From Alphaproteobacteria bacterium AO1-B (GTDB lineage: Bacteria; Pseudomonadota; Alphaproteobacteria; Rhizobiales; Stappiaceae), in NCBI GenBank assembly GCA_001890945.1, contig MLAX01000003.1, positions 434,001-498,000 on the forward strand: a stretch of DNA of 64,000 nucleotides, written 5' to 3'. The position numbers and the translations under genes were made by a program. The notes beneath the pieces are model-generated. The model was not told the origin of the DNA and did no database searches. It saw only the letters and a program-made list of their open reading frames with translations. Shown piece by piece: positions 26,163 to 49,179 of the stretch; the stretch's first letter is position 1, and the number at the start of each line of letters is the position of its first letter.

Positions 26163-26177
26163 TTAATAAGGGTTTAA
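26163..26177. promoter_or_regulatory. CtrA box upstream of flagellin (24544-26067)
   Basis: TTAA-TAAGGGT-TTAA (TTAA-ACCCTTA-TTAA on the minus strand) matches the CtrA consensus TTAA-N7-TTAA exactly. It lies 96-110 bp before the start codon. Confidence 0.6.
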
Positions 26178-37490: not shown

Positions 37491-38000
37491 ATGACCGACG
37501 AGAATGCCGCAGCCGAAGAAGATGGTGAGGAAGATGCCGCCGGTGGTGGCGGTAAGAAGAAACTCATTCTCTTTGGGGCAATTGGGCTTGTGGTTCTGCT
37601 CGCCGTTGGAGGCGGGGCTTACTACTTCTTGTTCATGGGCGACAGCATGCCGGCGCCTGCGCCAGGTGAAGATGCGGCGCCGCAGGAAGTGCAAAGACCG
37701 GTGGTCTTTTATGACCTTCCGGAAATGACTGTGAATTTGGCGACCGAGGGCCGCACGACCTACCTGAAGGTCCGCATCGCTCTGGAGGTCGAAAACCGCG
37801 CAATGATCGATCAGATCCAACCGTATCTGCCGCGCATCCTCGATGCGTTTCAGATCTACTTGCGCGAGCTTCGTCCCGCAGACCTGGAAGGGTCTGCCGG
37901 CCTGTTCCGCTTGAAGGAAGAATTGCTCAGGCGGATCAACTTGTCGGTCTATCCGGCAAAAGTGGAAGGGGTGCTGTTCAAGGAAATCCTTGTTCAGTGA
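37491..38000 (+). CDS. fliL: Flagellar basal-body protein FliL
   Basis: 169 residues. An acidic, glycine-rich cytoplasmic leader (1-20) is followed by a basic GGKKK and a single transmembrane segment (LILFGAIGLVVLLAVGGGAY). The periplasmic domain carries FYDLPEMTVNLATEGRTTYL, KVRIALEVE and LRRINLSVYPAKVEGVLFKE. FliL surrounds and supports the stator. It starts the operon fliL-fliM-DUF6468-motE, with a CtrA-like site and a GC palindrome in its leader. Confidence 0.95.
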   Translation: MTDENAAAEEDGEEDAAGGGGKKKLILFGAIGLVVLLAVGGGAYYFLFMGDSMPAPAPGEDAAPQEVQRPVVFYDLPEMTVNLATEGRTTYLKVRIALEVENRAMIDQIQPYLPRILDAFQIYLRELRPADLEGSAGLFRLKEELLRRINLSVYPAKVEGVLFKEILVQ

Positions 38001-38008
38001 TGGTGTGA

Positions 38009-39247
38009 ATGGCAAACGCCGACGACGATGATGATCTGTCCGAAGAGGACATGGCTGATGCGTGGGGTGCTGCTCTAGCGGAGCAGGGCGCAGGTGGCGA
38101 TGACGATGAAGATCTGGCTGCGGCCTGGGGTGCTGCTCTAGAGGAGCAGGGCGCTGGCAGCTCGGACGATATGGCTGCGCAATGGGCGGCCATGATCGAC
38201 GACAGCGAGCCGGATCTGGAAAACGCCACCCGCGGCGCCGACCGCGTTCTCAACCAGGAAGAGATCGACAACCTCCTCGGGTTCAACATCGAGGACACGA
38301 TTGCTGGTGATCAGAGCGGGATTCGCGCGCTGATCAACTCGGCAATGGTGTCCTACGAGCGCTTGCCGATGCTCGAAATCGTGTTCGACCGTCTCGTGCG
38401 ATTGACCACGACATCCTTGCGCAACTTCACGTCCGATAACGTTGAGGTGTCGCTGGACTCCATCAGCTCCGTACGTTTTGGCGATTATCTGAATTCCATC
38501 CCGCTGCCGGCGATCCTCGGTGTCTTCAAGGCGGAGGAGTGGGACGGATTTGGCCTGATCACCGTTGAATCAAGCCTCATTTATTCGATCATTGACGTCT
38601 TGCTCGGCGGCGGCCGTGGCACCACGGCGGCCCGCGTGGAAGGGCGTCCTTATACGACCATCGAAACGAACCTCGTTCAGCAGATGGTATCGCTGATCCT
38701 TCAGGATGCAGAACAGGCCTTCGCGCCGCTGTCTCCGGTTCATTTCAATCTGGAGCGGCTGGAAACCAACCCACGCTTTGCTGCGATCTCCCGGCCGGCG
38801 AACGCGGCGATCCTCGTCGAATTGCGTATCGACATGGAGGACCGCGGCGGGACCGTTGAAATCATGATGCCCTACGCAACTCTGGAGCCGATCCGTGATC
38901 TGCTGCTCCAGATGTTCATGGGTGAAAAATTCGGCCGTGATCCAATCTGGGAAGGCCACTTGGCGACAGAAATCCATGCGGCGGAGATTGAAGTCGATGC
39001 GGTTCTTTATGAGACCTACCTGCCGCTCGGCCGGGTACTCAGTCTGGATGTGGGGCAGACCTTGGTCTTCGATGTTTCGCCGACGGATCCAGTGTTGGTG
39101 AAATGCGGAAATATTCCGCTGACTGAAGGGACGCTTGGCAAAACGGAAGACTCTATTGCCATCCGTATCGCGCGGAACCTGCGCAAACCGAAAATGACAT
39201 TGGCGGCGTTCGAGCGGGCCATGCAGAGCGAAATGGAGCAACCATGA
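38009..39247 (+). CDS. fliM: Flagellar motor switch protein FliM with N-terminal repeats
   Basis: 412 residues; most FliM proteins have 320-350. The extra N-terminus has three tandem units: EEDMADAWGAALAEQGAG (12-29), DEDLAAAWGAALEEQGAG (33-50) and DDMAAQWAAMIDD (53-65). The usual LNQEEIDNLLGF, the CheY-P binding motif, comes only at 81-92. The middle CheC-like domain (LPMLEIVFDRLVRLTTTSLR, LPLPAILGVF-type sequence) and the C-terminal SpoA domain (LSLDVGQTLVFD) are complete. FliM is the C-ring switch subunit. It follows fliL by 8 bp and overlaps the next gene by four. Confidence 0.95.
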   Translation: MANADDDDDLSEEDMADAWGAALAEQGAGGDDDEDLAAAWGAALEEQGAGSSDDMAAQWAAMIDDSEPDLENATRGADRVLNQEEIDNLLGFNIEDTIAGDQSGIRALINSAMVSYERLPMLEIVFDRLVRLTTTSLRNFTSDNVEVSLDSISSVRFGDYLNSIPLPAILGVFKAEEWDGFGLITVESSLIYSIIDVLLGGGRGTTAARVEGRPYTTIETNLVQQMVSLILQDAEQAFAPLSPVHFNLERLETNPRFAAISRPANAAILVELRIDMEDRGGTVEIMMPYATLEPIRDLLLQMFMGEKFGRDPIWEGHLATEIHAAEIEVDAVLYETYLPLGRVLSLDVGQTLVFDVSPTDPVLVKCGNIPLTEGTLGKTEDSIAIRIARNLRKPKMTLAAFERAMQSEMEQP

Positions 39248-39816
39248 CATCCTTGCCAATCGGATTGATTATTGAGGCTCTTGTTGCCGTTCTGCTGGTC
39301 ATTACGATCGCTTACTGCTGGATCCTGAACCGCCGTTTGCAGCGCTTGAGAGCCGATGAGCAGACCCTGCGTGCAACCATTTCCGAATTGATGACAGCGA
39401 CGGAAATTGCCGAGCGGGCAATCCTGGGTTTGAAGACGACCGCAGCCGAGGCAGACAAGTCGCTCGGCAAGCGTCTTAAGGAATCGGAAACCATGTCGAA
39501 CGCCTTGGCTGACCAGATCCGCGAAGGTGATAAAGTGTTTACGCGGATATCTCAGATTGCAGGGGCCGCGAAGTCATCGGCTCCGCAACGAGAACCTATT
39601 CCGGCAGCGGACCCGTACCCGGTGCAGCCGCAAAATGCTCCGGTGCCGCAACCTGCTGGGTACGGAGCTGTTGAACCAGTGGTTCCGCAAAGTGCGCCGG
39701 CTGTCGAACCCGAGCGCAGACGCGCAAGTAGGGCCTCGGATATCCGCAGTGCGGCTGAGGAAGCGACGGCGCGGTTGGAGCAGTTTCGAAACAAGCGTAA
39801 AGGCGCTGCTGCATGA
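39244..39816 (+). CDS. DUF6468-like flagellar-operon membrane protein
   Basis: 190 residues. One N-terminal transmembrane helix (IGLIIEALVAVLLVITIAYC) is followed by a coiled coil (RRLQRLRADEQTLRATISEL to about residue 105) and a Pro-rich disordered tail ending in RLEQFRNKRKGAAA. It overlaps fliM by four bases (ATGA) and motE by four, so it is tightly coupled to both. I associate this type with DUF6468, found in alphaproteobacterial flagellar operons, but its job is unknown. Position suggests a role at the motor or stator interface. Confidence 0.75.
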   Translation: MTSLPIGLIIEALVAVLLVITIAYCWILNRRLQRLRADEQTLRATISELMTATEIAERAILGLKTTAAEADKSLGKRLKESETMSNALADQIREGDKVFTRISQIAGAAKSSAPQREPIPAADPYPVQPQNAPVPQPAGYGAVEPVVPQSAPAVEPERRRASRASDIRSAAEEATARLEQFRNKRKGAAA

Positions 39817-40538
39817 ACTTGAGATTGTTGCCATTGTTGGGTGTCGCTGCGAGCGCGCTGTTCGGGTTGAAGCTTTTGGGACTTGCTGTGGGTCCTGAAA
39901 CCGGCAGCCTGCCAATCAATGGTGCGATCGCACAAGAAACGACTGAGTCCGCGGCGGATGGCGGTGAAGCGCCACCAGCACCTGCTGATCTGGCGGCGCA
40001 ACCTCCCGGGGCCGTGCCTCCGCCTGCCCAGCCGGTGCTTCCGGATAGCTTGGAAATCGGCGGATCTGCGGCTGAGCGCGCAGTTTTGGAAAGCCTCGGG
40101 AAACGTCGGGAAAATCTGCAGAAGCAGGAAGGTCAGTTGGATCTGCGGGAGCGCCTACTTCAGGCGACCGAAGAGCGGATCGAGCAGCGGGTTGAAGAAC
40201 TCAAACAACTCGAGGCCCGTATCGGTGCTGCCGTTGAGGAAAAAAAGCAGCAGGAAGAAAACGAGATCGCTGGTCTTGTGACCATGTACGAAAACATGAA
40301 GCCGAAAGACGCAGCTCGTATTTTCAACCGTCTCAGCCTGCCGATCCTTTTGAAGGTCGTACGCCAAATGAAACCGCGGAAAATGGCGGATATTTTGGCG
40401 CGCATGTCACCTGATGCCGCGGAACGTTTGACGGTGGCGATTGCCAGCCAATCTTCGACACCGCCAGAGCCGGAAGCGCAACCTGTTCAGGCCCAGGCGC
40501 CCACCGGTGGTATCCTACCCAAGATTCCGTCGAATTGA
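39813..40538 (+). CDS. motE: MotE-like periplasmic protein (MgtE N-like domain)
   Basis: 241 residues. A signal-like N-terminus (LLPLLGVAASALFGLKLLGL) precedes a Pro/Ala-rich linker, a coiled coil (RRENLQKQEGQLDLRERLLQ through EEKKQQEE, about 87-148) and a compact helical domain: LVTMYENMKPKDAARIFNRL and MKPRKMADILARMSPDAAER, the MgtE-N-like fold of FliG/MotE. Rhizobial MotE is a periplasmic chaperone for MotC. No motC is in the window, so the symbol is by family. It overlaps the upstream gene by four bases. Confidence 0.8.
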   Translation: MNLRLLPLLGVAASALFGLKLLGLAVGPETGSLPINGAIAQETTESAADGGEAPPAPADLAAQPPGAVPPPAQPVLPDSLEIGGSAAERAVLESLGKRRENLQKQEGQLDLRERLLQATEERIEQRVEELKQLEARIGAAVEEKKQQEENEIAGLVTMYENMKPKDAARIFNRLSLPILLKVVRQMKPRKMADILARMSPDAAERLTVAIASQSSTPPEPEAQPVQAQAPTGGILPKIPSN

Positions 40539-40632: not shown

Positions 40633-43600
40633 TTGCCAAGGCGAATTCAGACATCGCTGGCTCTTATGAAATTCGCAGATTACTGCGAACGGAGAGCATT
40701 TGCGTGCCTGCAGGTTGCCGTCTTGCTCGTTGCGGCCTTGGTTTCGTTAACTGTTCCTGCGTCCATATCTCTTGCAGACACACTGGAACCGGTTGAACTG
40801 GAAGTTTCTCAGGAACAAGGCTTTGGCCGTATCGTTCTGACCTTCAAGGACCGGACCCTCCTGCCGACGTATGACGCGGTTATAACGGGCGGTGTGCTTC
40901 GCATTTCGTTTCAGGACCCGATTGACGTCAATGTCGATGATGTTCCTTTGGACCTTAGCGACTACGTCACTATCGCCCGGCGGGATCCGGATGGAGCCGC
41001 GATCCGCTTTGCTCTGAAAACCCAATATCAGATCAATACGCTTGAGGCCGGCGAAAAGCTCTTCATTGATATCCTGCCGATGACCTGGAGCGGTTTGCCG
41101 CCAGGACTGCCAGACGATGTTGTCCGGGAGTTGGCGAAACGCGCCGAAGAAGCGATGCGCAAAGTGCGCGCTTTGGAGCAGGCGCGCTTGAAGGCGCAAG
41201 AAGGACCGCAGGTTACGTTGCATGTCGGAGAGCATCCAACGTTCACACGGTTGGTGTTCGACTGGTCCATCAAGTTCGACACCGCGTTTGTTCGTGAAAA
41301 CGACATTATCAAGCTGACATTCAATCATCCGGCGCAGTTGGACATCTCGCATCTGCGCACACACCTGCCACCCGGTGTGATTGATGCGACGTCGTTCCTG
41401 GACAAAGGCAAGCTGAAGTTTTTGATGCGCGTTGAACCGTCGGTCGATATCCGGGCGTTCCGCGAAGAGCAGACCTATGTGATCGATGTTACGCCGGAGA
41501 ACATGGAGCCGAATGATCCGGCGAATGCTCTTATCAATCAGGAACTGTCCGTTGCTGATAACGAAAACCGCTCGCAGATGATAACGGCTCCGGGGCTGCG
41601 GGACACGCGGGAGGTCCGAAACCCTCGTGGCTTGCCGCCGGCAGCCGTGTCTTCTTCCGGTGGTGGGCGGCTTAAAGAATCCCGTGCGGATGAATCTCCA
41701 GGTTTTACAGCAGTTCCACTTGGAGGGGGTGGGGCGGGCTCCTCGGACAATGGCAGCCAGGCGGCGCCGACCGATGATTCAGCTCAGGCACCACCGATAG
41801 AAGAAATTACCATCGCTCAGGCGCCTCCGCCGGCTGGCGTTGCAGGCGATGGGCCCCGGCAGAAACCCCCTGGAACTTCCGGAGTTCCCAACGCAGAAAA
41901 CAGAGCCAACAACAGGACCGGGCAAGGCCCGGTTCAAGTCGTTTCTGAAGACGAAGCTCCTGGCGAAACCAATTTGCCGCTTGAGAGCGTGTCCGCAGAT
42001 CCAGTGGTTCTGGCAGATGCTGATGGGAACGAGGCGTCTGCGACAGCAGATGGCAGCGAAATCACCGCTTCGATTGGGCCTCAAGACGGTGAGTTCGGCG
42101 ATTCTTATGCGACCGGGACGTCTGATGTGAACGTACCGCGACCAATCCAATTGGCTCAGGCAAGCCAACGCGCCATGCCGCTCGGCGACGTTCCGCCTCT
42201 GGAAGAACAAATTTCGCGACCAGCCCCTATGCTGGATTTGTCCACGCAGCAACCTGGTGATCCACTGCCTGAAGCGCCGCAGCCTGGAAACGCCATTCCG
42301 ACCTTGCAGCCGGCAGAGGCACTCGACGAAAACAATCGTCCTGCCGTGCCAAACAGTTCGGTTCAAATCCGGCAGAATAATACCCTTGGCGGCAGTGACA
42401 TTCCGGCCGGGATACAGCTGCCGCAAACCGAGGTTCAGGCGCCTGAGACTTGGCGCGCCACTGGTGGCCGTGATGTCGGGGCTCCGCGTGTGTCGCCCGA
42501 GCGCCCGCCCGAAAACTTTGGCGCGGAAGCCAGGAACTTTGTGTCTGCGGAAGCCCGCCGGATCGGCAACACCGTCCGGGTTGTGTTCCCGTTCTCAGAA
42601 CCGGTGTCGAGCGCAGTCTTCCGTCGGAATGATAGCATCTGGCTCGTGTTTGATACGGACGCAACGATCGATACGCGCGGCATGGTCTCCGCCCTTGCCG
42701 AAACTGCTGAAACGATCGATGTCGAACAACACGGGGACTATCAGATCCTCCGTTTGGACATGAATGATCCGGTTCTGGCAACCGTTGGCGCTGATGGCAA
42801 TGCCTGGTCCCTTGTCATTGGGGACTTGATTTTGGAGCCTTCTATTCCGTTGAAGATGGAACGGACGGTTCGCGGTGATGGCGGCTCCATTTTGCGGGTT
42901 CTCTATCAGGATCCGCAACATATTCGCAGCATCACAGACCCGTTTGTTGGCGACACGATTTCCCTGGTGACAGGGTTTGGACCACCGCGCGGGTTGTTGA
43001 AGCCGCAAAACTTTGTCGATCTGGAAGCCCTGAGTTCAGCGCAAGGGATCGCACTTGCGACTCGTTCCGACGGCGTGAAGATCAAGATCCTCGGTGACGA
43101 TGTCATCATCGAGAAAGACGGTGGCCTTGCTCTGTCCAACCGCCATCTTCGGGGTGGGACGGGAACACTCAGCCGGATTGTCGAGCCGGACGACGATGGA
43201 ACTGTCGAGTTTGTATCTTTGAGCACAACAGGGCCGGGCGCATTCCGGTCCCGCTTGAACGAACTGCAATCAGATCTTGCGCAAACACCTGAAGGCAAAC
43301 GCGCCAAGCCCCTGATGGCTCTGGCCCGGTTCTACCTGGCACACCAGTTTCCGCAGGAAGCGATGGGCTGGTTAAACCTCGCATTGGAAGAAAACCTTGC
43401 CCTTGCCGAGGACAGTTCGTTCAACCTGGTCAAGGGTGCGGCGCTTGCAATGGCGGATCGGCCAGAGGAAGCGTATGAGCATCTACACAGACCTGACCTG
43501 AAGAACAGCCCTGATGCGGCAGTTTGGCAGACAATCGTCGATGTAAAGCTTGGCAATTGGACACAGGCCCGGATTGCCATGCCACGCGGCCGGGCGGTGG

Positions 43601-44943
43601 TCGGAAACTATCCGACGTCGATCCAGACCGAGTTCAAATTGGCTGCCGCTCAGGCGATGGTTGAGGCCAATGATTTCGGGATCGCAAACGGCATTCTTGC
43701 CGAGATCGAACCTGCCGAAGTCACGCGTGCACAAGCGGCGCGCTATGACATCTTGCGTGGCCGTGTTGCCGATGCATCCGGCCGCTCCCAGGAAGCCTTG
43801 ACCGTGTTTGATCTGGTCGCCCGGTCGGATGACCGGCCGCGGGCAGCGGAAGCCGAATATCGTGCGCTGCGCATCCGCTACCGCGATGGCGAGATGACCA
43901 TTGATGAAGCGATCGATCAGCTTGCTGCCCTTTCGACCTCCTGGCGCGGAGACGAAATCGAACTCAGAACGCTTCGGTTCCTGGCCCAGCTTTATGCGGA
44001 GCAAGGCCAATACCGAGAAGCGTTTGAGGCGATGAAATCCGCCGTGCAGGCCGAACCTGACGCAGACACCACGCGGCTGCTTCAGGAAGAAATGAACGCG
44101 TTGTTCAATTCGCTTTTCCTGGATGGAAAAGCGGATGAAATGCCACCGATCAAGGCTTTGGCGCTGTATTATGATTTTAGAGAATTGACGCCGATCGGCC
44201 GCCAGGGCGATGAAATGGTCCGTCTTCTCGCCAAGCGTCTTGTCGAAGTCGATCTTCTCGACCAGGCAACCGAATTGCTGCGCCATCAGGTCGATAACCG
44301 GTTGAAGGGGGCTGCCCGGGCCCAGATCGCAGCCGATCTTGGGGCGATCTATCTCATGGACCGGAAGCCGGAAGAAGCGCTTCGTGTCTTGAACCGGACC
44401 CGCCAAGCCAGCCTTCCGTCGACGCTGACACGTCAGCGCAACATCGTCGAAGCGCGGGCGCTCACTGAAAGCGGCCGCCCGGATCTGGCGCTGGAGCTTG
44501 TTCGGAACATGCGCGGAACTGATGTGGATCGGCTCCGGGCCGATACGTTCTGGGCCGCAGAGAGCTGGCGGGATGCCGGTGATCAACTTGAAGCCATGCA
44601 CGGCTCCCGCTGGTCGGACCAGATCCCCCTGGATGAGCTTGAGCGCCGAGATATTCTGCGCGCCGGGATTGCCTATTCTCTTGCCGGTGATCAGCTGAGC
44701 CTGGAGCGTTTGCAGAACAAGTATATGGCCAAGATGGCCGACAGTCCGGAAGCTTTGGCATTTGAAGTCGTCACCCGGCCGATCCAGGCACAAGGTGTCG
44801 AGTTCCTTGAAGTTGCCAGCCAATTGGCGGACGTCGACTCGTTGGAAACATTCCTGGAAGAGTACCGGCGTCAGTACATGTCCCCGGACCGCAGTTCCAA
44901 CCGCGCGGAAGGTCCACCGGTTGAAGCTGAGCCTGCGGGTTAA
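40633..44943 (+). CDS. Giant periplasmic AMIN-like/TPR protein of the flagellar locus
   Basis: 1436 residues if the TTG at 40633 is used (GAGG ten bases upstream); an ATG at 40666 would trim 11. A signal peptide or anchor spans 22-48 (QVAVLLVAALVSLTVPASIS). Two beta-rich AMIN-like modules occupy about 50-150 (GFGRIVLTFKDRTLLPTYDA) and 192-288 (FTRLVFDWSIKFDTAFV). A Pro/Gln/Glu-rich linker spans about 290-630. A third AMIN-like module lies near 640-735 (NTVRVVFPFSEPVSSAVFRR). From about 875 to 1400 come TPR-type helices (LMALARFYLAHQFPQEAMGW; AQLYAEQGQYREAFEAMKSA). AMIN domains bind peptidoglycan or envelope proteins. The role is unknown; position after motE suggests the motor's periplasmic part. 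Confidence 0.85.
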   Translation: MPRRIQTSLALMKFADYCERRAFACLQVAVLLVAALVSLTVPASISLADTLEPVELEVSQEQGFGRIVLTFKDRTLLPTYDAVITGGVLRISFQDPIDVNVDDVPLDLSDYVTIARRDPDGAAIRFALKTQYQINTLEAGEKLFIDILPMTWSGLPPGLPDDVVRELAKRAEEAMRKVRALEQARLKAQEGPQVTLHVGEHPTFTRLVFDWSIKFDTAFVRENDIIKLTFNHPAQLDISHLRTHLPPGVIDATSFLDKGKLKFLMRVEPSVDIRAFREEQTYVIDVTPENMEPNDPANALINQELSVADNENRSQMITAPGLRDTREVRNPRGLPPAAVSSSGGGRLKESRADESPGFTAVPLGGGGAGSSDNGSQAAPTDDSAQAPPIEEITIAQAPPPAGVAGDGPRQKPPGTSGVPNAENRANNRTGQGPVQVVSEDEAPGETNLPLESVSADPVVLADADGNEASATADGSEITASIGPQDGEFGDSYATGTSDVNVPRPIQLAQASQRAMPLGDVPPLEEQISRPAPMLDLSTQQPGDPLPEAPQPGNAIPTLQPAEALDENNRPAVPNSSVQIRQNNTLGGSDIPAGIQLPQTEVQAPETWRATGGRDVGAPRVSPERPPENFGAEARNFVSAEARRIGNTVRVVFPFSEPVSSAVFRRNDSIWLVFDTDATIDTRGMVSALAETAETIDVEQHGDYQILRLDMNDPVLATVGADGNAWSLVIGDLILEPSIPLKMERTVRGDGGSILRVLYQDPQHIRSITDPFVGDTISLVTGFGPPRGLLKPQNFVDLEALSSAQGIALATRSDGVKIKILGDDVIIEKDGGLALSNRHLRGGTGTLSRIVEPDDDGTVEFVSLSTTGPGAFRSRLNELQSDLAQTPEGKRAKPLMALARFYLAHQFPQEAMGWLNLALEENLALAEDSSFNLVKGAALAMADRPEEAYEHLHRPDLKNSPDAAVWQTIVDVKLGNWTQARIAMPRGRAVVGNYPTSIQTEFKLAAAQAMVEANDFGIANGILAEIEPAEVTRAQAARYDILRGRVADASGRSQEALTVFDLVARSDDRPRAAEAEYRALRIRYRDGEMTIDEAIDQLAALSTSWRGDEIELRTLRFLAQLYAEQGQYREAFEAMKSAVQAEPDADTTRLLQEEMNALFNSLFLDGKADEMPPIKALALYYDFRELTPIGRQGDEMVRLLAKRLVEVDLLDQATELLRHQVDNRLKGAARAQIAADLGAIYLMDRKPEEALRVLNRTRQASLPSTLTRQRNIVEARALTESGRPDLALELVRNMRGTDVDRLRADTFWAAESWRDAGDQLEAMHGSRWSDQIPLDELERRDILRAGIAYSLAGDQLSLERLQNKYMAKMADSPEALAFEVVTRPIQAQGVEFLEVASQLADVDSLETFLEEYRRQYMSPDRSSNRAEGPPVEAEPAG

Positions 44944-45083: not shown

Positions 45084-46181
45084 TCAGTGCGCCGTAACGG
45101 TAGCGCCCAGGGTCGACGCTGCTGCAGCCGCTGCTGCTGCGGCAGCATTCCTCGGCTTCTTGAGTTCTTTTTTGTACCGCATGACCAGTTCCGGAATGCT
45201 CCGGGTGCTCCGGTCCAGCCACTCGCAGCGCGCTTTCAGGAAATCACGGTAAGTTTTCTCGTGAATGCCTGTCTGCAGCATCAAGCGCATGATTGCGCCG
45301 TCCGCATCTGACTTCAGCGTGTCTGACACCACATCGTCGGCGAGATTGATCTTGCGGCTGATCAACCAGATCGCTGCATCCAGGCGCTGTTCCTCGAACA
45401 GGGTCCTTAGGATTGCATCAAAGGACAGCTCACCATTTGCGATCTGTACGCTTGCTTCATGCCGGGAGTAAATGACCCCATCGATCTCGATGTCGCCTTC
45501 GCCGCGTTTGATGTTGTTGATCTGCGCGGCCAGCTTTTCCAGGGTGTCTTCCTCGATGGCGCGCTTTAGAGGCGCCGGAAAGATCGGACAGTTGGTCTCC
45601 AGGATCTGCATCTGGGTTTCCAGGAACTCGCTGTCGCGCAAGGCGCGCCTTGCAAGTCCACCAAGCACTTCAACTTCCGTGTTTGCAAAGATCAAAAGCG
45701 CCAACACGCCGCGGACGGAGAAGGGGGCGTCGAGATTTTCCAGGAGCGCATGCACCACTGGCCGGGCACTTCTGGCAATCAGCTTGTCGGTGACCTCTTC
45801 GCTGAGATCGTCGCGGTGCGCCATGACCCCCCGCTTGTCGTTTCCGCCGCTGGTGGCGATTGCCATCAGGGCGTCCTGGCTGATGACCGGGGAGCATTCG
45901 ATGACAGGTTCGGACAGGGCAAAATCTTCTTGGGCAAGACGGTCGGCAAGGTCCGGAATGATCCGGTTGGTTTTGGCGAGACGGACAACCAGTTCATAGC
46001 GCGCGCTGCGGTCCAGCTGATCGAAGACGGACAGCACAATCCTGGAAAAGAGTTCCCGCTCATTTTCCGTAGGGTCGTGGTCTTCCGAACGCGCATATTC
46101 CCCCACAAGGGTCCGGATCAATTTTGAGCGAGCTTCAGGTTCTTTGATGCGCGCGAGTTGTTCAAGTTGTTCTATGAGCAC
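45084..46181 (-). CDS. DUF2336 protein with poly-alanine tract
   Basis: 365 residues from a GTG start. HEAT-like helices fill the protein: LVVRLAKTNRIIPDLADRLA, FALSEPVIECSPVIS and RSARPVVHALLENLDAPFSV are typical of DUF2336 (often linked with PilZ or sensor proteins in alphaproteobacteria). After LVMRYKKELKKPRN the C-terminus has ten alanines in a row and then STLGATVTAH. It lies alone on the minus strand between two flagellar operons, converging on the giant TPR gene. Function is not known. Confidence 0.85.
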   Translation of the reverse strand: MLIEQLEQLARIKEPEARSKLIRTLVGEYARSEDHDPTENERELFSRIVLSVFDQLDRSARYELVVRLAKTNRIIPDLADRLAQEDFALSEPVIECSPVISQDALMAIATSGGNDKRGVMAHRDDLSEEVTDKLIARSARPVVHALLENLDAPFSVRGVLALLIFANTEVEVLGGLARRALRDSEFLETQMQILETNCPIFPAPLKRAIEEDTLEKLAAQINNIKRGEGDIEIDGVIYSRHEASVQIANGELSFDAILRTLFEEQRLDAAIWLISRKINLADDVVSDTLKSDADGAIMRLMLQTGIHEKTYRDFLKARCEWLDRSTRSIPELVMRYKKELKKPRNAAAAAAAAAASTLGATVTAH

Positions 46182-46420: not shown

Positions 46421-47188
46421 CTAGCCGCCCCCGAAACTCTTGACCAGGGATCCCGCCACTAGGTTCCAGCCATCGACTAGAACAAAGAAAATAAGCTTAA
46501 AGGGCAGAGAGATCACCACTGGCGGCAACATCATCATACCCATCGACATGAGGACCGAGGCAATCACAAGGTCAATGATCAGGAATGGCAGATAAAGCAG
46601 GAAACCGATCTCGAACGCCCGCCTGAGTTCGGAAATCATGAAGGCCGGAATGAGGACCGCCATCTCGAGATCTTCCGGTGTTTCAGGAGCGTCCCGGCCG
46701 GACAGTTCCTGAAAGAGCATCAGATCTTTTTCCCGCACCTGTGACAGCATAAAGTCCCGGAACGGCTCGGACGCCCGTTCATAGGCCTGATCGATTTCGA
46801 TATCGCCATCGATCAGGGGCTGGATACCTGCGTCATAGGCTGCTTGAAGCGTCGGCATCATGATAAAGGCAGACAGGAACAGGGCGAGGCTCACCATCAC
46901 CATGTTGGGCGGTGCGGTCTGCAGGCCGATCGCCGACCGCAAGAGCGACAGAACCACCACGATCCGGGTAAAGCTCGTGACCATCACAAGGATGGACGGC
47001 GCCAATGACAGCACCGTCAAAAGGATCACGAGTTGAACCGCACGCTCAGTCAGGTTCGCGTCATCCCCGAACCCAACGGAGATTTCCTGCGCCTGCGTCG
47101 GCAAGGTGAGTGCAATGGCACCCAGTGCAAACACCAGGCTTGCTGTCAGATATTTAAGCCAGTGGATGCGGCTAATGCGGCCCGTCAT
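46421..47188 (-). CDS. fliP: Flagellar export gate protein FliP
   Basis: 255 residues with a cleavable signal peptide (ASLVFALGAIALTLPTQAQE) as usual for FliP. Hallmarks: SILVMVTSFTRIVVVLSLLR, LQTAPPNMVMVSLALFLSAF, then LIPAFMISELRRAFEIGFLL and SMGMMMLPPVVISLPFKLIF. FliP5FliQ4FliR1 forms the core of the export gate in the inner membrane. It overlaps fliO by four bases. fliQ and fliR are in the other operon, at 50.4-51.5 kb. Confidence 0.97.
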   Translation of the reverse strand: MTGRISRIHWLKYLTASLVFALGAIALTLPTQAQEISVGFGDDANLTERAVQLVILLTVLSLAPSILVMVTSFTRIVVVLSLLRSAIGLQTAPPNMVMVSLALFLSAFIMMPTLQAAYDAGIQPLIDGDIEIDQAYERASEPFRDFMLSQVREKDLMLFQELSGRDAPETPEDLEMAVLIPAFMISELRRAFEIGFLLYLPFLIIDLVIASVLMSMGMMMLPPVVISLPFKLIFFVLVDGWNLVAGSLVKSFGGG

Positions 47189-48759
47189 TGTTTCGGCTGT
47201 CCACCCAATTCATCCAGAATTTTCGCCATCTCTGCTTCGATCGGATTGCGGTCTCCAATGCCTTGGTCTTGCGGGGTCTGGGCCTGCTTGCCTGTACCGA
47301 TCTCTTTTTTCTCCTCGCCGGAGTTTTCGGCCGTTTCGGCCGCCTTGACCGGCTCGCTCACGTCGTGTGCGTCTTTTTTCTCGTCTGTTTCTTTGGTCTC
47401 GACAACGATGCCGGCTGGCTTTTCCTCAGTTGGCTCTGATGCCGATGCCTCAACCTTTTGTGGTTCTGTGCCGGTTGTGGTCGTGGCGGGCTCGTCGAAC
47501 AATTCCTTTTCAATGCTCTCGGCCATGACATTTGTTAGATCCGCCTTTTCTGCCGAAGAGGAGTTGTCTTTCGGCTTTTCCGGATCTGACGCATTTTCAA
47601 CTGCAAGTACTGCTTCCGCACCGAGTTTCGGTTTTTCTGCCTGTTGGTTTGAGCCTTGAAGAGTTTCTTGAGATTGGGGTGTGGTGTTGGTGTTGGGGGT
47701 CAGGACAGGCTCAACCCGTTTTTGTGAGCTGTCCGTTTCGACCGGTGTAACCAACGCCGTTTTTGCCCGGGCTGCTGGACCAGAAGCTGGCGGCGATATT
47801 TTTGCAGACCCATAGGACGGCCGGTCCTTTGGAGAGAACGGCCGCGCCAATGAACTCAAAGAGTTGCTGAGCCGGGAAGCCGGTTTTGGGGCCTCATCCT
47901 TGGTCGCAGACAAAACCGGCGCAGAACTGCCTGGTTCTGGCTTCGTGGCGGTGACAGTTGAAGCGGAGAGGGCCGGTGCCTTGTCATTCGAAACCGGGCT
48001 TGCAGGTGCAACGGTGACCGGCGGCGTCTGCGCATTTGCTGAACTTGGTGCTGTTGTTTGTTCAGCGGGGCGAGGACCTACCGGCTGAGCACTTTTGTTT
48101 TGGCTGATTGAGCCCATGGAGGGGCGAGGGCTTCCGGCCAGGGTCTGTGGCTTGGCGGGTGCCGCAGGCGAGGAGGGTTGTGGTGCCTGGCGCGGTGGAA
48201 GAGCAGCGGTCGCCGGCGCTTTGGGCGCGCTCTCTACCGGTGTGGCCGGTGCCGGTACAGGTGCCGTGGCCATTGCCGTTGATGGTGCCGGTTGCGCCGG
48301 CGCTTTCAGATCTGGCGCCTGATGAGGTTGCTGTGCAGCCGCGCTGTCTTCCGGTGTCAGAGGAATATCCGGACCAGGAGCAAGAGGTGCCTTGATGCCC
48401 CCTGCCTGCGCTGCGGCCTGATGGGTGCCGGTTCTGGTTTGCCCGGCAGCGAGTGGCGTGTTGCGGATGATGTTTTGCTCAACCACGACATCTGTCGGGC
48501 CGCCGACAAGGATCAGATGCTCGATATTGTCCCGGCGCACCAGCAAAAGCCGGCGGCGATTGTCGATCGCGGCACTGTCCATAAGTCCGATGCGCGGCTG
48601 GCGCCCGCGCGACTGTGTGATCCGGCCGCCCATCAGCCGTTTGATGATGAATATGAACAATCCAAACAGGGCCAGAACAACCGCCAGAGAAATGATCAGC
48701 GCCAGTCCCTGCGCCACGCTTTCTCCGACCTGAAATGTGTTTTGAATCCAGTTGTACAT
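47185..48759 (-). CDS. fliO: FliO with a very long disordered C-terminal extension
   Basis: 524 residues from the ATG at 48759, supported by CGAGGTAAAG; a start ten codons earlier lacks one. The N-terminal 95 residues are a FliO domain: one transmembrane helix (LALIISLAVVLALFGLFIFI) then RLMGGRITQSRGRQPRIGL, DSAAIDNRRRLLLVRRDNIE and HLILVGGPTDVVVEQNI. Residues 100-524 are Pro/Ala/Ser/Thr-rich, later Glu/Lys-rich, without a fold. The last helix is IEAEMAKILDELGGQ. Enteric FliO has about 120 residues. FliO stabilises FliP during gate assembly. It overlaps fliP by four bases. Confidence 0.9.
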   Translation of the reverse strand: MYNWIQNTFQVGESVAQGLALIISLAVVLALFGLFIFIIKRLMGGRITQSRGRQPRIGLMDSAAIDNRRRLLLVRRDNIEHLILVGGPTDVVVEQNIIRNTPLAAGQTRTGTHQAAAQAGGIKAPLAPGPDIPLTPEDSAAAQQPHQAPDLKAPAQPAPSTAMATAPVPAPATPVESAPKAPATAALPPRQAPQPSSPAAPAKPQTLAGSPRPSMGSISQNKSAQPVGPRPAEQTTAPSSANAQTPPVTVAPASPVSNDKAPALSASTVTATKPEPGSSAPVLSATKDEAPKPASRLSNSLSSLARPFSPKDRPSYGSAKISPPASGPAARAKTALVTPVETDSSQKRVEPVLTPNTNTTPQSQETLQGSNQQAEKPKLGAEAVLAVENASDPEKPKDNSSSAEKADLTNVMAESIEKELFDEPATTTTGTEPQKVEASASEPTEEKPAGIVVETKETDEKKDAHDVSEPVKAAETAENSGEEKKEIGTGKQAQTPQDQGIGDRNPIEAEMAKILDELGGQPKQ

Positions 48760-49179
48760 CTTTACCTCGTGCCGTCCCTTGGCGCCCAAACCGGGAGACA
48801 GCGTTTACTGTTGAATGTGTTCCTGATGACGGCTTGTGGCGTTTATCCCCAGTAATTCCGAACATCACCGCGTTGGGGCGTGCTCATTCAAATCGGCTGT
48901 AATTGCCTGCCGTTTTCGATCAGTGCCGCACCTGTTCTGGCTGCTCTTGGCAATTTCTGCCGCTTGATGCCCCGTCTCGAATCTCTCTTAGTCTCAAAGT
49001 TAACAGAGCTAGGCAGAATTTGCCTGTGGTCGGGGCGCGGTAATTCGCGAAATGCACGAAAAACATGCGGGGCTTTGGTGAAAAATTAACGCCGGACCTG
49101 TCTACGTTAAGAATAGTTAACCACTCATTAACCATTTCGTCGGCAATCTTTGCCTGTTGGTTAACAGAAAGTGAATCGG
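48760..49179. other. Divergent promoter region fliO / flgB
   Basis: This 420-bp gap contains a perfect CtrA box at 49117-49131 and extra TTAA sequences at 49086, 49107 and 49162 near flgB. The fliO side has no motif I can name. A 69-codon plus-strand frame (48880-49089) has no ribosome site and is not taken as a gene. Confidence 0.75.
49117..49131 (+). promoter_or_regulatory. CtrA box of the flgB operon
   Basis: TTAA-CCACTCA-TTAA(CC) matches the CtrA consensus fully, 49-63 bp before the flgB ATG. The flgBC-fliE genes are class II, CtrA-dependent genes in Caulobacter. Confidence 0.75.

Follow-up and report, generated by a model that had tools for sequence, protein, structure and literature searches.

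MotE partners and the AMIN/TPR gene

The MotE homologues FlgY and FlbB form the E-ring of the flagellar motor, and MotE itself is placed by homology as dimers around the MS-ring (PMC13023049). According to the same review, the FlgY E-ring of Campylobacter meets spokes of PflA and the spokes of Helicobacter extend to the stators. MotK of Cereibacter sphaeroides, encoded in the operon fliL2-pflI-motE-motA2-motK, is reported to bind MotE and MotB2, to be required for rotation, to go to the flagellated pole in dependence on MotA2/MotB2 and to be needed for the stability of MotE (PMC10954123). In Caulobacter crescentus, FssB (CC_2058) follows the MotE gene CC_2059 (PMC13023049), and deletion of CC_2058 is described as preserving the filaments while abolishing swimming and blocking the stator-dependent adhesion pathway (PMC7885107). 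MotC of Sinorhizobium meliloti is described as a periplasmic MotE partner rich in tetratricopeptide repeats (TPRs) that belongs to another flagellar type (PMC13023049). The gene considered here is an open reading frame (ORF) of 1436 codons with a TTG start (40633–44943, + strand) in a window of 64,000 nucleotides from Alphaproteobacteria bacterium AO1-B (contig MLAX01000003.1, positions 434,001–498,000), a close relative of Roseibium (Stappiaceae, Hyphomicrobiales). Its product combines AMIN-like modules with a TPR solenoid, is the Hyphomicrobiales form of a MotK/FssB family and is referred to below as the Roseibium form.

By analogy with these relatives, the protein is best explained as a periplasmic scaffold (spoke) of one flagellar motor type that would work with MotE and dock on the E-ring, a reading to which a probability of about 0.78 is assigned. 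The architecture of the protein, its family, its operon and its co-occurrence with MotE are established here.

Architecture and relation to MotK-type proteins

Both the TTG and the first ATG (40666, giving 1425 residues) are possible starts, because the motif GAGG lies about 10 nt 5' of the TTG; the motE stop at 40538 leaves a gap of 94 bp to the TTG and 127 bp to the ATG. Residues are counted from the ATG. The N-terminus (residues 1–37, 40666–40776) looks like a Sec signal peptide as judged by eye, and periplasmic export is predicted. Structure modeling and profile comparison then place AMIN-like module 1 (residues 39–144, 40780–41097), a modeled linking helix of 29 residues (150–178, 41113–41199) and AMIN-like module 2 (179–281, 41200–41508), the module common to MotK-type proteins. 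A linker of low complexity, rich in proline, alanine, glycine and serine (285–617, 41518–42516), leads to AMIN-like module 3 (617–721, 42514–42828; model and profile comparison) and to a fourth β-domain seen in the model (721–821, 42826–43128), which hhalign finds unrelated to the AMIN modules. The C-terminal part is a TPR-like helical solenoid (854–1405, 43225–44880) recognized by Pfam TPR, the model and structure searches; it comprises 32 helices in the AlphaFold model, with a single TPR above the Pfam cut-off (TPR_2, residues 1103–1132, 1.3e-6). The most conserved stretch within residues 600–1425 (1168–1246, 44167–44403) is a candidate docking site. All of these features lie on the + strand. 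A first reading made from the DNA letters alone (the sequence-only reading) had anticipated the three AMIN-like modules and the long TPR array, and its disordered linker is present with a length of 333 rather than 340 residues.

The three modules are homologous to one another, with hhalign probabilities of 98.6 (modules 1 and 2), 97.8 (2 and 3) and 94.9 (1 and 3). The AlphaFold model shows an AMIN fold for module 2, with AmiC and PilQ, the proteins from which AMIN domains are best known, among the top fold matches. From sequence alone, Pfam points only weakly to AMIN: neither AMIN (PF11741) nor AMIN-like (PF24837) exceeds its curated cut-off in the window protein though the fold matches, PF24837 giving E 0.18 with the full-length protein and 0.0063 with a fragment (12.4 and 17 bits against a cut-off of 27). 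Among 45 aligned members, PF24837 matches 13 and PF11741 six at E <= 1. The profile search that the sequence-only reading had proposed as a check for AMIN stays below threshold in Pfam; the fold is recovered in the structure model.

Relation to MotK was assessed with three genomes (G082, G493 and G669) that show the gene order fliL-DUF6468-motE-motA-x, as in the C. sphaeroides operon, the third without a called DUF6468 gene. The x proteins (764–819 residues) are labeled MotK-type from operon order, motA being named by position and look. They match profile A4 with E values of 5.7e-11, 2.5e-12 and 4e-6 among the locus ORFs and of 2.3e-5, 1.8e-6 and 5.1e-5 per genome. The alignment of these three sequences matches the family with an hhalign probability of 99.3 (E 9e-21 over 473 columns; reversed-sequence controls <=0.5). 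By part, the probability is 99.2–99.4 for the solenoid, 94.7 for module 2, a weak 48.3 for module 1 and 0.2, i.e. no match, for module 3. Such profile–profile comparison places MotK-type proteins in the family; CC_2058 is probably its Caulobacter member, given family membership and gene order. Three properties of MotK/FssB proteins are found in the window protein: a TPR solenoid preceded by AMIN-like modules, a gene in or beside a fliL-(fliM)-DUF6468-motE operon, and a sequence relation to the three MotK-type proteins. The sequence-only reading had left the protein with no named role, and this does not hold. BLAST similarity between MotK and Caulobacteraceae proteins is stated to be lacking in PMC10954123, and CC_2058, MotK and MotC served as BLAST queries in Alphaproteobacteria in a preprint (PMC11870540); in the literature searched, supplementary tables excepted, no publication was found that joins these proteins by sequence.

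MotC was rejected as a homologue. A MotC-like family of 12 sequences (from this genome and 11 others) gives hhalign probabilities of 12.8 and 29.3 to the C-terminal part and 0.1 to the AMIN part, and MotK against MotC gives 0.1. The same genome contains a second flagellar set (G000:C11:808000-831000 and 559500-568000; L219, L225–L227). Its FliM is short and divergent, its own MotE-type gene lies next to flgH, and a MotC-like gene occupies 818277–819509; the names MotB, MotC and fliK are presumed here from Sinorhizobium gene order. No family member was seen among the ORFs listed at this set.

Within the family, the named loci are the best 80 of 559 confirmed loci in a contig scan and include Brevundimonas, Bradyrhizobium, Afipia, Rhodoplanes, Stappia and Roseibium. 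The module set in these best 80 is 1-2-3-4 in 60, 2-3-4 in 12, 3-4 in seven and 1-3-4 in one, some of the ORFs being cut by contig ends. Modules 2 and 3 are separated by 6 to 343 residues (median 135, n = 72), the five longest spacings being from Roseibium or Labrenzia, and eight inspected loci (six Brevundimonas, one Caulobacteraceae and one unclassified) have two AMIN modules 6–9 residues apart. The part after the fourth domain is near-constant at about 611 residues (585–698, n = 80). The C-terminal alignment A5 omits 20 of the 80 loci (19 for redundancy or length, plus L157), and alignment A6 holds 44 of 45 pieces.

Association with FliM and MotE

The gene follows fliL (37491–38000; PF03748, 1.6e-20), fliM (38009–39247; PF02154, 3.4e-65, with TIGR01397 above cut-off), a DUF6468 gene (39244–39816; PF20072, 2e-23) and motE (39813–40538), all on the + strand, and the order and the 94 bp gap given in the sequence-only reading are confirmed. 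The motE product, an E-ring protein of the MotE/FlgY/FlbB family and the presumed binding partner of the AMIN/TPR protein, matches NCBIfam collar_FlbB (3.5e-8) and MgtE_N (5.9e-5), both under their cut-offs; the E-ring review gives the MgtE_N domain as the mark of such proteins (PMC13023049). In the Cereibacter order fliL-pflI-motE, the DUF6468 gene would occupy the place of PflI, a name given here from gene order alone (PMC10954123).

The relatives sample comprised 61 genomes: the organism itself, 36 congeners and 24 members of other families in its order. The AMIN/TPR protein and a PF02154 FliM occur in the identical 50 genomes and are both missing from the same 11. In 48 of the 50 carriers, fliM precedes the gene in the same orientation at no more than 3.5 kb, and in the other two the genes are on separate contigs; conservation of this arrangement excludes chance. 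The operon order is likewise conserved in the order-level loci and in many named loci. FliP (PF00813) is found in 52 of the 61, namely 49 carriers and three non-carriers (G037, G058 and G059), and these three also have a MotC-like gene (5.3e-11, 2.0e-31 and 1.6e-36). The eight non-carriers without FliP look non-flagellated. The other three seem to carry the MotC-type motor, whose FliM is missed by PF02154 at the threshold used, since FliP and a MotC-like gene are present where PF02154 is absent. Since FliP shows three of the 11 genomes without a PF02154 FliM to be flagellated, this Pfam model indicates one type of motor rather than the presence of flagella in general, and the protein, absent from the eight FliP-less and three MotC-type relatives and present in the 50, tracks one motor type.

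Across a class-wide sample of 240 genomes, the protein and FliM are both present in 121, the protein only in 11, FliM only in 12 and neither in 96 (Fisher 4e-40). With MotE, the corresponding numbers are 121, 11, nine (MotE only) and 99 (Fisher 4e-43), and all three proteins are present in 118. Nine genomes have FliM without a MotE match; six of these lack the protein, and all six have a short divergent FliM. Where the protein and FliM co-occur (121 genomes), their genes are no more than 12 kb apart in 90 (on one strand in 89 of them); three genomes have them far apart on a single contig and 28 on separate contigs. In a phylum sample of 349 genomes, searched with at most two candidates scored per genome, 84 genomes matched; 31 of them are from other classes, all with weak matches (best 1.8e-11), and every match below 1e-40 falls inside the class. 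These associations, the operon order and the MotK-type profile match support the motor link that the sequence-only reading had drawn. One small genome, G171, has a weak family match of 933 codons (L085:4504-7302, − strand) about 200 kb from its FliM; by eye, this member adjoins a tolB-like gene.

In the family of Brevundimonas halotolerans (Caulobacteraceae), a long match is found in 36 of 40 genomes, one per genome. A motE gene is present in 34 of these 36; it immediately precedes the family gene in 19 and lies elsewhere in the other 15. The Brevundimonas genes directly after motE were considered as CC_2058 candidates and rejected, having no family match; the family gene adjoins fliP. The fold matches with AmiC and PilQ, together with the commonness of TPR scaffolds, would also suit a general envelope scaffold of the cell-pole or secretin type that stands in a flagellar operon by accident. 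The distribution among the 61 relatives, the class-wide association with FliM and MotE and the single long match in 36 of 40 Brevundimonas-family genomes all speak against such a scaffold, making it the least probable of the explanations weighed.

On the examined stretches of the best 80 of 559 loci, FliM is also present in 52 and MotE in 57. Plasmid matches by tblastn comprise 11 records of Azospirillum and one each of Sphingobium and Erythrobacter; no plasmid matched L076. The A. brasilense plasmid member (L189:7233-9614), annotated merely as a tetratricopeptide repeat protein, is flanked by flgF, in an flgF-flgG-flgA-flgH group, and by motA and motB, which follow it directly, and the Erythrobacter member is downstream of fliL-fliM-DUF6468 and a MotE-type gene. 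At plasmid MotE-like loci of Salipiger, Pseudoroseomonas and Komagataeibacter no annotated TPR protein occurs within 6 kb, hypothetical proteins being outside this comparison. Of seven further loci, three supplied the MotK-type proteins; as to the other four, L260 (G712) has a family member in the usual operon, L256 (G702) has one beside flgF, L259 (G709) is a weak match with no flagellar gene on 12 kb and L261 (G243) is a fliL-DUF6468-motE locus without a family member. The proximity of many loci to flgF-flgG-flgA-flgH and fliP clusters could indicate a scaffold for assembly of the rod, P-ring or L-ring instead of a stator partner. This is very unlikely, since the Caulobacter fssB mutant is described as making filaments (PMC7885107) and the C. 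sphaeroides motE and motK mutants as having paralysed flagella (PMC13023049), so that flagellar assembly is not blocked in these relatives.

Among the named loci, Roseibium sediminicola (L165) has the same gene order as the window; the copy of the window protein in genome G001 is 97% identical. A DUF2336 gene, weakly SpbR-like (45084–46181, − strand), faces the AMIN/TPR gene; this neighbor is present in R. sediminicola and by phmmer recurs in three of the 80 named loci, all Roseibium (L165, L168 and L188). A FliO-type gene (47185–48789, − strand, 534 codons) has a very long Pro/Ala-rich part, its relatives ranging from about 90 to 670 codons. No CtrA-type boxes were found 5' of fliL in the window. 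Two perfect TTAA-N7-TTAA boxes, presumably of the CtrA type, occur elsewhere in the window (shuffles average 0.15), at 26163–26177 and at 49117–49131, the latter 39 bp upstream of the flgB start.

A putative E-ring spoke compared with known motors

In the spoke reading, MotE dimers would form an E-ring around the MS-ring, and the C-terminal TPR solenoid would dock on it, most likely through residues 1168–1246, and reach out to the stators. The AMIN modules would hold peptidoglycan or MotB, and the scaffold would thereby recruit, position or activate stator units. In the Roseibium form, two of the AMIN modules would hang on the 333-residue flexible tether. Periplasmic location, binding of MotE and MotB2, polar localization and paralysis of mutants are known from the literature on relatives and would apply here by analogy; we infer from them the same role in Roseibium, together with the docking site, the spoke geometry and the AMIN targets.

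The strong genomic pairing with MotE might also reflect a chaperone-like stabilizer that keeps MotE folded or delivers it, the motor phenotype then arising from loss of MotE. The requirement of C. sphaeroides MotE for MotK (PMC10954123) fits this, as does the description of S. meliloti MotE itself as first termed a chaperone for MotC (PMC13023049). However, MotK goes to the flagellated pole itself and needs MotA2/MotB2 to do so (PMC10954123), in Campylobacter FlgY as well as PflA has a structural role (PMC13023049), and three AMIN modules with a 550-residue solenoid would exceed the needs of a chaperone. A stabilizing role is therefore considered unlikely.

With residues 600–1425 as the query, Foldseek ranks 9hmf_K first of 1701 matches (E 8.7e-11, TM-score 0.23), a chain of 773 residues that fits PflA 16–788. 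In the model, the window protein has the PflA-type succession of AMIN-type β-sandwich, linker and TPR superhelix. A direct sequence link to PflA was sought with profiles A3 and A6 against PDB sequences and none was found; PflA and PflB are described as not conserved in sequence (PMC11870540).

Several observations weigh against the spoke reading. In VIA-align the best matches of the solenoid are ordinary TPR proteins, and 9hmf is absent from the list; together with the Foldseek TM-score of 0.23, this means that the solenoid by itself does not single out PflA. The PDB sequences that A3 matches at E <= 1 and A6 at E <= 10 include no PflA chain. Among the 61 relatives, G043 carries the protein and FliM and has no FliP match. 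In the class-wide sample, three of the nine FliM-positive genomes without MotE do carry the protein (G087, G103 and G148), and 11 genomes have the protein without FliM; three of these (G126, G288 and G299) match weakly, with E from 1.7e-4 to 7.4e-4, and the remaining eight include five genomes of less than 90% completeness. Conversely, the protein was not found in six genomes with both FliM and MotE: in three a contig ends within 1.8 kb past motE, and one of these contigs still includes the beginning of the protein; the examined stretch has motE but no family member in G212 and G260, and in G275 motE lies elsewhere. Finally, the Brevundimonas family gene adjoins fliP, away from motE.

A broader joint reading is possible but tentative, and is held at less than even odds. 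In alphaproteobacterial motors of this type, the E-ring partner would be one ancient, sequence-coherent family (MotK, FssB and the window protein) and a vertical homologue of PflA, so that ring and spoke would be a single ancestral module. The solenoid would be a strut of fixed length and the AMIN end would have been rebuilt, with one module in MotK-type proteins, two untethered modules in Brevundimonas and, in Roseibium, three plus a tether of at most about 340 residues; a second motor in the same cell would use the unrelated MotC. If so, the AMIN end of each lineage would give a different reach to the cell wall or stator. Escherichia and Salmonella, on which flagella have mostly been studied, lack an E-ring according to the review (PMC13023049). 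A MotE-tied profile across Alphaproteobacteria allows the spoke to be found by sequence and its docking to be asked, and would open load transfer from E-ring to stator to testing in easily grown marine or soil bacteria. The family may also be tied to surface sensing, because the adhesion response of Caulobacter that depends on the stator is reported to require FssB (PMC7885107).

Among the known systems, PflA of Campylobacter jejuni and Helicobacter pylori differs from the window protein in having one AMIN domain and no detected sequence relation. MotC is likewise a TPR-rich MotE partner, but has no significant profile match. FssB resembles the window protein in its Sec signal and TPR region (PMC7885107), its AMIN-like N-terminus (PMC10954123) and the position of its gene 3' of motE (PMC13023049); the eight inspected loci of Brevundimonas and related bacteria carry two AMIN modules 6–9 residues apart, whereas the Roseibium form has three and the 333-residue linker. 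MotK of the Fla2 system of C. sphaeroides shares the order of an AMIN-like domain followed by TPRs and a place in the motE operon, but is described as a protein of 652 residues with one AMIN-like domain and a gene that follows motA (PMC10954123).

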